In this document: piece after piece, positions 2,840-5,342 of the stretch
Layout: each line of letters opens with the position of its first letter
How positions within the stretch are numbered: position 1 is the stretch's first letter
Source: Komagataeibacter nataicola
GTDB lineage: Bacteria > Pseudomonadota > Alphaproteobacteria > Acetobacterales > Acetobacteraceae
NCBI RefSeq assembly: GCF_003207795.1
Contig: NZ_NIRT01000002.1
Coordinates: forward strand, 1-64,000
DNA: 64,000 nt
Reading direction: 5' to 3'
Position numbers and translations under genes: made by a program
Notes under the pieces: model-generated
Seen by the model: the letters and a program-made list of their open reading frames with translations, nothing else
Databases searched by the model: none
What the model was told of the DNA's origin: nothing

Positions 2840-4540
2840 CTAGATCGTACTGATCACAATTTCGACGAGGTTGGGCCGCCCCGACGCCATCGCGGCCTCA
2901 ATGGCCGGGGCAATGTCGGCTGCCCGCGTGATCTGGCGGGCCTCCAGCCCGTATGAAGTCGCCATCGCCTGATAATCAATGGGCGGATCGCACAGATCCA
3001 TCGCCAGGAAATTCCCCTGCCGGGCCGAGACATAATGCGTCTGCCCGCGCATGAAGCCCTTGAGCACGTTATATTCGCGGTTGTTCATCACCACAAATGT
3101 CACGGGCAACTGTTCATGCGCCGCAGTCCAGATCGCCTGCGGGGAATAAAGTGCCGCACCATCGCCCACAAGGCAGACCACCGGCTCGCGCCCCAGCCCG
3201 AGCGAAGCCCCCACCGCCGCCGGCATGCCCCAGCCCAGCGCACCGCCACGCAGGAAGGAATACTGCGCCGCCCAGTCGCTGTTGAGGAACATGCGCGTGT
3301 AGGATGACGTGGCGATGGCCTCATCCACAATGGCAACCTGAGGGCCAATGGCGCGCACGGCCTCGTGGGCGGCGACACAGGGGGCGATGACCGCATCATC
3401 CTGATGGGCGGCCACCAGTGCTTCGGCCTCGAGGTGCCTGCGGGCACGGGCCGCCACGACTTTTTCGCGTGCAGCGACATAGGCAGCGCGGCGGGGTTCG
3501 GTCTCGCGCTGCAGCAGCGGTAGCAGCACGTCGAGCGAGGCGCGGATATTGCCCACGAGAGAGAGCGGCGTCTGGAACGTGCGGCCAAGGTCACGCGCAT
3601 CGGCCGAGACCTGATAGACCGCACAGCCCGGCGGCACGGGCGAGCCCTCGGAATAGAGGATGGTGATGAGCGACTTGCCGCCCAGCGCGAAAATCGCATC
3701 ATAATCCGCAAGGCGGCCAGCGATATCAGTGGCGCGCGTGGGCATGTTGCCTGCCCAGAGCGGGCACGACGTGGCAAACGGAATGCGCGAGGGCCACGAC
3801 GCGCCATAAACCGGAGCCCCCAGCATGTCAGCTACGGCGGCAACCTGCGCTGCGGCATCGGCCCCATGCACCTCGTCGCCCGCAATGATGGCCAGCCGCC
3901 CTGGCACAATGCCAGCCAGAGCGCGGGCCAGTTCCGGCAGGCCGCCGGCTATGGCCTCGCGGTTGATGACCGAAGGCCTGCCAATGTCGATATCGCTGGC
4001 CTCCTCCATCACATCCATGGGCAGCGACAGGAAAACCGGCCCCGAGGGTGCTGCCATCGAATCGTTGAAGGCCCGGCGCACCAGCACGGGCAACTGATCG
4101 GCATGCAGCACTTCCTGCGCCCATTTCACGGCCGGGGTGGCGATGCTGACCAGATCGCCAAACAGCAGCGGGTCGGAAATGGTATGCCGCGAATCCTGCT
4201 GGCCCGCCGTCACCACCAGCGGCGTCTGCGATACGCTGGCATTGAGCAGGTTGCCCATGCCATGCCCCAGCCCCCCCGCCGTGTGCAGGTTGAGAAAGCC
4301 GGGACGGCCCGCCGCCTGGGCATAGCCATCGGCCATGGCCACCACGCTCGCCTCCTGCAGGGCCAGGATGTATTTCAGGTCGGGGCGGCGCTGCAGGGCA
4401 TCGATCAGGGGGAGTTCCGTTGTGCCGGGATTGCCGAAGATATAGCGAACCCCTTCATTTTCCAGAATTTCCAGAAGGATGTCGGCGCCGCGCCGTCCGC
4501 CTGTTCCCCGTGCTGCGACCTCAAGCGGTGTAATGGCCAT
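2840..4540 (-). CDS. ThDP-dependent decarboxylase, benzoylformate-decarboxylase-like
   Basis: This 566-residue protein has the full three-domain layout of thiamine-diphosphate 2-oxoacid decarboxylases. The N-terminal PYR domain carries FGNPGTTELP and the catalytic Glu in LQEAS (Glu63). A His in NLHTAGG (His86) matches the conserved active-site His of benzoylformate decarboxylase. The C-terminal PP domain has VGDGAALYSPQAIWTAA followed by VVMNNREYN (from about residue 458), the ThDP/Mg motif. The benzoylformate decarboxylase active-site Ser of GNPGSNE is Thr here, and I cannot find the second His (His281 of the Pseudomonas enzyme), so the substrate is uncertain; an acetolactate-synthase-like or oxalyl-CoA-type role is less likely. 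The Fur box at 4636-4666 lies about 100 bp upstream and could control it. Confidence 0.8.
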   Translation of the reverse strand: MAITPLEVAARGTGGRRGADILLEILENEGVRYIFGNPGTTELPLIDALQRRPDLKYILALQEASVVAMADGYAQAAGRPGFLNLHTAGGLGHGMGNLLNASVSQTPLVVTAGQQDSRHTISDPLLFGDLVSIATPAVKWAQEVLHADQLPVLVRRAFNDSMAAPSGPVFLSLPMDVMEEASDIDIGRPSVINREAIAGGLPELARALAGIVPGRLAIIAGDEVHGADAAAQVAAVADMLGAPVYGASWPSRIPFATSCPLWAGNMPTRATDIAGRLADYDAIFALGGKSLITILYSEGSPVPPGCAVYQVSADARDLGRTFQTPLSLVGNIRASLDVLLPLLQRETEPRRAAYVAAREKVVAARARRHLEAEALVAAHQDDAVIAPCVAAHEAVRAIGPQVAIVDEAIATSSYTRMFLNSDWAAQYSFLRGGALGWGMPAAVGASLGLGREPVVCLVGDGAALYSPQAIWTAAHEQLPVTFVVMNNREYNVLKGFMRGQTHYVSARQGNFLAMDLCDPPIDYQAMATSYGLEARQITRAADIAPAIEAAMASGRPNLVEIVISTI

Positions 4541-4635: not shown

Positions 4636-4666
4636 CTTGATAATAATAATGATTATCATTATCAAG
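4636..4666. promoter_or_regulatory. Fur box (31-bp dyad)
   Basis: The stretch starts CTTGATAAT and ends ATTATCAAG, an almost fully symmetric dyad. The inner 19 bp (4645-4663) match the classical Fur consensus at 17 of 19 positions by eye. A rightward promoter overlaps it: TTGATA at 4638-4643, 16 bp, TATCAA at 4660-4665. The mirrored arrangement could serve the leftward gene starting at 4540. Iron-loaded Fur bound here would block RNA polymerase in both directions. Confidence 0.85.
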
Positions 4667-4672
4667 AATGCA

Positions 4673-4769
4673 ACCCGTGGGTTCACCGACAGATTTCCAA
4701 CCGTCGATTTCCCAACCCTTCCCACGGAAACTTACGGCATCACCTGCATCCGGGTGATGCCGTTTTTTT
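4673..4769 (+). ncRNA. Candidate Fur-repressed small RNA
   Basis: A start about 7 nt after the -10 element that overlaps the Fur box gives a transcript of about 97 nt ending at a strong intrinsic terminator. Two stems are visible: CCGTGGG (4675-4681) with CCCACGG (4721-4727), enclosing a smaller CGAC/GTCG hairpin (4687-4690 with 4703-4706), and then the terminator. Between the stems lie unpaired C-rich stretches (TTCCAACC, TTTCCCAACCCTTCCC) of the kind that pair with ribosome binding sites. No good ORF fits inside. The plan, Fur operator then about 100-nt structured RNA then terminator, is that of RyhB-type iron-sparing sRNAs, but the sequence does not look like RyhB or PrrF. It could instead be a terminated leader of the gene at 4887. 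Confidence 0.6.
4734..4769 (+). terminator. Intrinsic terminator
   Basis: ACGGCATCACC (4734-4744) pairs perfectly with GGTGATGCCGT (4753-4763) around an 8-nt loop, followed by a run of seven T (4763-4769). It is a textbook Rho-independent terminator for rightward transcription. There is no upstream rightward protein gene, so its natural client is the candidate small RNA. Confidence 0.88.
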
Positions 4770-4886
4770 ATCGCGCGCCAGAACAGGTCCGTGCCTGCAG
4801 GGCGGCACAACCGTGCATCTTGTGATTGACCACCCGCCACAACCCGAAGATGATACACGCTTACGCGACCATGAAAGTACGCTCCC

Positions 4887-5342
4887 TTGCCTGCCGACAG
4901 TACCGCGCCACCACCCCAGACAACTGCTCCTGGCGCGCAGGCGGATCATGACCCGGCACTTCCCGTCATTATCGAGACCCTGCGCCATGATGGCATCATT
5001 ACCGCACGCCAGCTCGAGGCGGCACGGTTCTGGGCCACGGATTACCGGATTGGCGTGATGGGGCTTGAAGACCCGCTGTTTGACCGGACATCGCTCGGCC
5101 TGTCACGCCGCCCGCTTAACGGGCGGAGCGGGTCGATCAACCGGTATCGCCATATTCACGATATCATCGGGGCGCGTTACGAGCGTGTGCTCATCGCCGC
5201 CATGATCGATCACCGCCCCCTGCATGAACTCGCCCGCCATGCCCGCCACGACCCGCAGCATATGGGGCAGGTGCTCGCGCTGCTGCTTGATTTCCTGACG
5301 CGACATTACGATGCGATGCCGGGCCACCTGTGGCGCGGCTGA
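4887..5342 (+). CDS. DUF6456-like helical protein
   Basis: The 151-residue product has a disordered Pro/Ala-rich start and then a helical domain (about residues 25-150: IETLRHDGIITARQLEAARFW, then RYRHIHDIIGARYERVL and a C-terminal amphipathic helix). This resembles the DUF6456 domain often found at the end of helix-turn-helix proteins, but I am not certain. The reading frame has no ATG near the start; the best start is TTG at 4887, and the frame is closed just upstream at 4872. A 26-codon ORF with an ATG (4871-4951) overlaps the start in another frame, so translational coupling or a misplaced start is possible. The gene lies about 115 bp after the terminator at 4734-4769. Confidence 0.65.
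   Translation: MPADSTAPPPQTTAPGAQADHDPALPVIIETLRHDGIITARQLEAARFWATDYRIGVMGLEDPLFDRTSLGLSRRPLNGRSGSINRYRHIHDIIGARYERVLIAAMIDHRPLHELARHARHDPQHMGQVLALLLDFLTRHYDAMPGHLWRG

Follow-up and report, generated by a model that had tools for sequence, protein, structure and literature searches.

The window analysed here, a stretch of 64,000 nucleotides of the Komagataeibacter nataicola genome (contig NZ_NIRT01000002.1), carries at 4673-4769 a gene that very probably encodes a Fur-repressed, trans-acting, iron-sparing small RNA, predicted to repress sdhCDAB by pairing through the loop segment CGUCGAUUUCCC. A preliminary description of the locus had proposed an iron-responsive small RNA and, with the response to iron as a prediction, this is still the best reading, considering that the genome holds a paralogue, that both stems show compensatory changes, that the loop core is conserved and that an sdhC site varies together with it. 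These RNAs appear to form an undescribed family in vinegar- and cellulose-making bacteria. The features of the window copy are the following.

4636-4666, no strand assigned: Fur-type operator, a 31-bp dyad CTTGATAATAATAATGATTATCATTATCAAG covering the whole promoter (script-checked on the sequence)
4637-4642, plus strand: -35-like element TTGATA (TTG-N3 and the 17-nt spacing occur in 57/57 loci)
4660-4665, plus strand: -10-like element TATCAA (the pairing of stem 1 begins at 4675)
4673-4769, plus strand: small RNA, type 1 copy (start predicted from the promoter; end at the U-run)
4675-4681, plus strand: 5' arm of stem 1, CCGUGGG (covariation in helix 1)
4691-4714, plus strand: conserved loop core (92% mean identity; columns mostly invariant over 34 aligned copies)
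4702-4713, plus strand: sdhC-pairing segment CGUCGAUUUCCC (identical in 17/17 type 1 relatives; 12-bp pairing)
4721-4727, plus strand: 3' arm of stem 1, CCCACGG (covariation in helix 1)
4734-4763, plus strand: intrinsic terminator hairpin (T-run at 4763-4769; double-sided changes in the family)

The claimed Fur box (a 31-bp dyad with 17 of 19 consensus positions) was borne out by a script check of 4636-4666: 14 of the 15 arm pairs match, and the 19-mer at 4645-4663 agrees at 17/19 positions with the E. coli consensus. Of the claim that it overlaps a TTGATA/TATCAA promoter, the overlap stood, while the spacer, given as 16 nt, is actually 17 nt (4637-4642 to 4660-4665). Judged on sequence alone, a Fur operator with a 17/19 box covers the promoter from the -35 to the -10 element, and the same arrangement (TTG-N3, a 17-nt spacer, TA-N4 and a stem a few bases further on) was found in all 57 loci examined. 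In the whole genome, TGANAATNATTNTCA with at most one mismatch occurs at 21 sites versus 1 for the reversed pattern, and 15 loci were fetched around sites of this type. The genome encodes a Fur-family gene (PF01475), and one such site lies 90 nt upstream of it. Another is located 121 nt upstream of a Fe2+ transport gene (PF10634, assigned from the first 70 residues and barely above the cut-off), and one lies near a gene that by eye resembles an ECF sigma factor. The boxes of the type 2 and type 3 copies are, by eye, less similar to the Fur consensus. Since the Fur protein of G. diazotrophicus complements an E. coli fur mutant, according to PMC9368920, an E. coli-like box is expected to be functional in Acetobacteraceae. 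Judging by its operators, the small RNA family is probably repressed by the iron sensor Fur. The stretch 4636-4666 reads TTGATA-N17-TATCAA on both strands and, because of this, the TPP-enzyme gene at 2840-4540 (minus strand; benzoylformate decarboxylase is the top NCBIfam model, at a score under its cut-off) may also be Fur-controlled.

Downstream of the operator, the stem CCGTGGG/CCCACGG was found as described (4675-4681/4721-4727) and encloses a large loop. The terminator, previously reported as 11 bp with seven T, likewise held: its 13 pairs at 4734-4763 include a single G-U pair, the outer 11 being all Watson-Crick, and the seven T lie at 4763-4769. The predicted fold of 4673-4771 has an energy of -37.8 kcal/mol (z -5.8), and 0/200 shuffled sequences were as stable. 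The covariance model described below gives the window RNA 100.9 bits, the window being among the model's own sequences. The ORFs spanning 4636-4769 are mechanical calls, and the length differences between family copies are not divisible by three. Fold, terminator and lengths together describe a short non-coding transcript, as a prediction, with an intrinsic terminator. The RNA bears a U7 tail, and an hfq gene is encoded in the genome (E 5.2e-32).

Our genome of interest (3.67 Mb) contains a second copy (G000:C74:70082-70184, minus strand), which also lies behind a Fur-like box, on a different contig from the window copy, flanked by a divergent Dps-like ferritin gene and a gene for a 326-aa protein, here called U326. 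The relatives bearing the window locus are Komagataeibacter; it is kept in 17/18 same-genus genomes, and the one genome without it (G005) has the second copy. The comparative search in other Acetobacteraceae that the preliminary description had suggested recovered a family. A covariance model built from 34 copies was searched over 397 family genomes (E <= 0.1) and matched 36, of which 32 remain after four matches were rejected that by eye have no box (G238, G292, G367 and G408, E 7e-5 to 0.07; that of G292 is, by eye, tRNA-like sequence). Each of the 14 Komagataeibacter genomes that the family scan lists carries a copy and 10 of them carry two; copies are also found in Novacetimonas, Gluconacetobacter and the genera g10 and g55, the matches in the latter two being G027 (8.8e-10) and G158 (1.8e-7), respectively. 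A class-wide search of 385 genomes with the model matched our own genome alone; the family and class scans ran with stricter filters, at which weak matches are lost. When the loop core was used to scan GTDB contigs, 78 stretches were obtained, among which copies with box, stem-loop and terminator were, by eye, seen in Komagataeibacter, Novacetimonas and Gluconacetobacter only; the remaining stretches, from other genera, were rejected for having no box and stem by eye, as was a blastn match in G055. The search of a plasmid collection gave no match to the RNA. Stem 1 differs between the three types: CCGUGGG/CCCACGG in type 1, UCACGGC/GCCGUGA in type 2 and CCACGGG/CCCGUGG in type 3.

Covariation was assessed in an alignment of the 34 copies made on sequence only (597 cells, 18 pairs). 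The compensatory changes that had been anticipated were present in both stems: 98.3% of the 597 cells are paired and 11 of the 18 pairs changed on both sides, comprising 5/7 pairs of helix 1, where 99.6% of the cells are paired, and 6/11 pairs of the terminator helix. None of 500 shuffles matched the stem pairing or the double changes, and 12/500 matched the count of pair types, a weaker measure; when the stem partner was slid by 1-3 columns, the paired share fell to 28-54%. As the copies are related, the alignment cells are not independent events. From this alignment, we conclude that the RNA structure is under selection. Sequence identity was taken from an 18-row type 1 alignment with the window as the reference. 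Between the divergent start codon and the box it amounts to 71%, compared with 86% for the box itself, 87% for the RNA (4675-4769) and 57% past the terminator. Within the RNA, the arms of stem 1 reach 98% and 93%, the 5' part of the loop 66%, the core 92% and 4702-4713 100%. The loop core is, hence, conserved more strongly than the operator (92% vs 86%). A box kept above a freely drifting RNA, the outcome that the preliminary description had set against its own proposal, was looked for and the opposite was seen, with the core at 92% and the downstream flank at 57%.

The segment CGUCGAUUUCCC can form 12 bp with the ribosome-binding region of sdhC, and this pairing stops 8 nt short of the AUG. 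The preliminary description expected exposed C-rich runs to bind targets, which was partly right, as CGUCGAUUUCCC ends in one such run. The sdhC start region reads CAGGGAAATTGACGAGACGACCATG in 8/8 genomes (seven Komagataeibacter and one Novacetimonas) and CAGGGAAATCGACGAGACGACCATG in 6/6 Gluconacetobacter, with the site GGGAAATYGACG present in all eight and all six. Twelve of these 14 genomes have the full 12-mer in their own RNA; G254 and G285 have 11 of 12. For type 2, the predicted structure has a large part of the pairing segment paired within the loop. In g55, where the RNA lies in the U326 leader, its loops are different and sdhC differs to match: the G158 RNA pairs with sdhC over 15 bp, start codon included, the G382 RNA pairs with the sdhC leader over 15 bp without gaps and 27 pairs in total, and that of G309 forms 29 pairs with mismatches. 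The RNA loop and the sdhC site thus appear, from these comparisons, to have changed in step between genera. By computation, the RNA is predicted to pair near the start codon of one iron-enzyme mRNA, sdhC.

Loops were scored on a matrix of 13 sdhC regions (2/8 from Komagataeibacter/Novacetimonas, 1/6 from Gluconacetobacter, 1/1 from g10, 4/7 from g55 and 5 of the 14 listed from other family genomes). RNAduplex energies without loop limits were set aside and replaced by helix scores, since the stem arms were used in the duplex, which makes those energies uninformative. Without gaps, the scores of the four Komagataeibacter/Gluconacetobacter loops lie between -21.5 and -23.5 for the sdhC of their own group, compared with -8.5 to -15.5 for the ten others. 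The G158 loop reaches -32.2 with its own sdhC and -32.0 with the G331 one, all remaining regions giving -11.0 to -19.6. The G382 loop reaches -32.8 both with its own sdhC and with that of G309, and -11.9 to -19.3 elsewhere. With their own sdhC, the loops of G309 and G027 reach only -19.2 and -17.8. Shuffled loops were equally good in 1, 0, 1, 2 and 1 of 1000 cases for five Komagataeibacter/Novacetimonas/Gluconacetobacter pairs, and in 0/1000 for both G158 and G382. Gapless pairing was weak for G309 (67/1000) and not significant for G027 (221/1000), whose helix requires a one-base bulge, with which 10/400 shuffles were equally good. When mismatches and bulges were allowed, the cognate sdhC was best or near best and the margins were smaller: -21.5 on sdhC vs -20.6 on the control G033 for type 1, -28.6 on the cognate vs -26.3 on G309 for type 3, -25.5 on its own vs -26.6 on G382 and G309 for G027, and -32.7 on its own vs -35.0 on the sdhC of G382 for G309. 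Among 3637 stretches of 70 nt from the window, none reached the sdhC value with the type 1 loop and 16 did with that of type 2; the type 2 loop is less specific than the type 1 loop. Conservation of the sdhC site alone proves little, because the sdhC leader is itself conserved. In G331, G406 and G417 the sdhC start region is G158-like, but nothing found in their U326 leaders matched the RNA model comparably; part of this site may, therefore, be kept for translation alone. A scan of genus g55 with a g55-type RNA pattern was dropped, the pattern being too loose.

Other targets were sought as well. The exact motif GGGAAATYGA occurs at 11 sites in G000 and 23 in G356, and among the 30 of these 34 sites inspected at their locus, sdhC alone was start-proximal in both genomes, with no other common target. 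A scan of our own genome for 21-nt sites (wobble and up to three mismatches allowed) gave six, which were rejected as targets, two being the RNA genes themselves and four lying in or beside unrelated ORFs. The full 12-nt complement GGGAAATCGACG is found at L311 1163-1174, about 30 nt inside an ORF of the own genome, and is a possible second target; we take the ORF to resemble a carotenoid oxygenase, an iron enzyme.

Taken together, the proposed mechanism would be as follows. With iron present, iron-loaded Fur would occupy the operator over the -35 element, the spacer and the -10 element and keep the gene off. When iron is short, an RNA of about 97 nt would be made and terminated at its own terminator. 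Its first hairpin would expose the loop, and CGUCGAUUUCCC would pair with the stretch GGGAAAUYGACG of the sdhC leader, 8 nt upstream of the AUG. This pairing would block ribosomes at sdhC, resulting in less succinate dehydrogenase, which contains heme and Fe-S clusters; Hfq and the pairing probably also promote decay of the sdhC mRNA. We infer the transcription start, Fur binding, the iron response, repression and the use of Hfq from the sequence.

Among the other explanations, the one we consider least unlikely, although we give it only a small chance, is that of a small RNA of this shape for which sdhC is not the main target, or whose target is a protein. The loop has two C-rich motifs, the type 2 pairing is equalled in random sequence (16/3637 window stretches), the margins shrink with mismatches and a single shared target was found; known iron-sparing RNAs have many targets. 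Against it, the pairing segment and the sdhC site vary together between genera. It is highly improbable that the Fur box alone matters, serving the divergent TPP-enzyme gene (2840-4540, minus strand) as its operator, with the hairpins a mere terminator. Although the dyad presents TTGATA-N17-TATCAA to either strand and lies about 100 nt from the divergent start codon, the RNA side is better conserved than the stretch toward the TPP gene, type 2 copies have other neighbours, and a two-way control, which is possible, would leave the RNA in place.

A cis-acting 5' leader is also improbable. Here the Fur box would drive an mRNA, with stem and terminator controlling read-through into the downstream gene, as in an attenuator. 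This is suggested by U326, whose start codon lies a few tens of nt past the terminator in the type 2 copies of Komagataeibacter/Novacetimonas and the type 3 copies of Gluconacetobacter, as well as in those of g10 and g55, and which in L203 (g55) and L205-L208 (four other genera) follows directly behind a Fur-like box with, by eye, no such stem-loop. However, no U326 match is present beside the window copy, where a non-homologous ORF begins 118 nt past the terminator, or beside eight Gluconacetobacter copies (L047, L068, L069, L092, L096, L102, L166 and L168). In G164 and G285, moreover, the U326 frame is broken (possibly by a sequencing error in G285), yet both genomes retain the sdhC site and an RNA, in which 12 and 11, respectively, of the 12 pairing bases are present, and the invariant part of the RNA fits sdhC. 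For ligand-binding or anti-terminator elements the search covered Rfam, where nothing reached the gathering score at these RNAs.

The small RNA reading leaves room for an origin in such a leader. Because many copies lie in front of U326, and U326 elsewhere stands directly behind a Fur-like box, the RNA may have arisen in the U326 leader and then been copied out; leader first and free-standing gene later is the simplest order. We lean slightly towards a history in which a new terminator arose between the promoter and the U326 start codon, the truncated leader turned into a regulator of sdhC, and this was copied out with its promoter to give free-standing genes like that of the window, the sdhC pairing being replaced outright between genera and the sdhC leader following. 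This history would include, at one position and within a single bacterial family, at least three RNA-target pairings, those of Komagataeibacter/Gluconacetobacter, of G158, and of G382 and G309, and, if true, would be a natural record of the co-evolution of a small RNA and its main target. In L191 and L193, U326 lies, by eye, behind a box and a diverged stem-loop, in L193 without a clear terminator; in this by-eye survey of leaders, L194, L202 and L204 were ambiguous, and for a second U326 paralogue (L201, L209-L212) no clear box was seen.

U326 is present in 41/397 family genomes and 10/102 genera. From its position directly behind a Fur-like box in L203 and L205-L208 (by eye), it is probably Fur-regulated and, as it often lies behind such a box, a candidate for a new iron-starvation protein. 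The 326-aa protein is encoded at G000:C74:69085-70062 in our genome (L032 3083-4063, minus strand), with a 42% identical paralogue at G000:C9:74802-75767. Invariant W, H, C and R residues are found among 17 homologues; no match was obtained in Pfam at 0.001 or in NCBIfam at 1, and the AlphaFold model (mean pLDDT 82.6) had no match in a fold search against the PDB at E <= 0.001. The Dps-like ferritin gene at L032 4342-4884 (plus strand) is divergent from the type 2 RNA and shares with it the intergenic region with the Fur-like box, as such a gene does at the type 2 loci of many Komagataeibacter and at nine of those of Gluconacetobacter. A fluoride riboswitch (Rfam RF01734, 35.4 bits, cut-off 34) is found at L032 7091-7170 (plus strand), some 3 kb away from the second RNA copy. 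In the window, an ORF of 151 aa at 4887-5342 (plus strand) is conserved beside the window copy in Komagataeibacter and has no Pfam or NCBIfam match.

The RNA concerns industrial organisms: in industrial acetic acid bacteria, the yield depends on respiratory dehydrogenases. It would offer an indirect route for iron control of sdh, and the changed RNA-target pairs of g55 look like natural compensatory mutants for testing the co-evolution of small RNAs and their targets. A transcriptome of G. diazotrophicus under iron limitation (2022) predicted a Fur site upstream of sdh, and its main text holds no mention of small or non-coding RNA, nor of RyhB (PMC9368920). Our literature search, with subscription papers mostly outside its coverage, returned no Fur-controlled iron-sparing RNA of acetic acid bacteria.

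That the RNA would work like RyhB, NrrF and PrrF is well supported by its parts and its target. RyhB of enterobacteria and PrrF1/PrrF2 of Pseudomonas combine a Fur box over the promoter with a short, terminated Hfq-type RNA and an iron-protein target, and PrrF comes as twin copies. The layout of this type that had been described for 4636-4769 (Fur box on the promoter, stem-loop, terminator) proved correct, and so did the remark that the sequence does not resemble RyhB. Likeness lies in the Fur box, the terminated RNA, the iron-protein target and, for PrrF, the twin copies; the loop differs, and both copies here are on different contigs. In Rfam, nothing reached the gathering score in the window or at the RNAs of L032, L167, L155, L191 and L193; membership of the PrrF and RyhB families is not supported, with PrrF at 18.4 bits vs a cut-off of 90 and RyhB absent from the matches at E <= 10. 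NrrF of Neisseria is likewise Fur-controlled and represses sdhCDAB by pairing, as stated in PMC5586341. It differs in being absent from the Rfam matches at E <= 10, a comparison made by model list, and in that the RNAs described here often sit in the leader of another gene. BrrF of Burkholderia, following PMC7377471, is a low-iron RNA with targets including sdhC, sdhA, acnA, fumA and sodB and is similarly tied to a neighbouring Fur-regulated gene; unlike the present RNA, which comes first, at the promoter, it lacks its own Fur box and is believed to be expressed together with hemP. RusT of Caulobacter is, following PMC11005374, an alphaproteobacterial iron-starvation small RNA that uses Hfq; it is under NtrYX control and acts on many mRNAs of outer-membrane transporters. 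Its locus lies between lolA and xth, whereas the neighbours here are the TPP enzyme, an unnamed ORF and glucokinase. The RusT paper also states that in the Fur regulon of Caulobacter no Fur-controlled iron-sparing RNA has been identified, the role for which the RNA described here is a candidate in the acetic acid bacteria.
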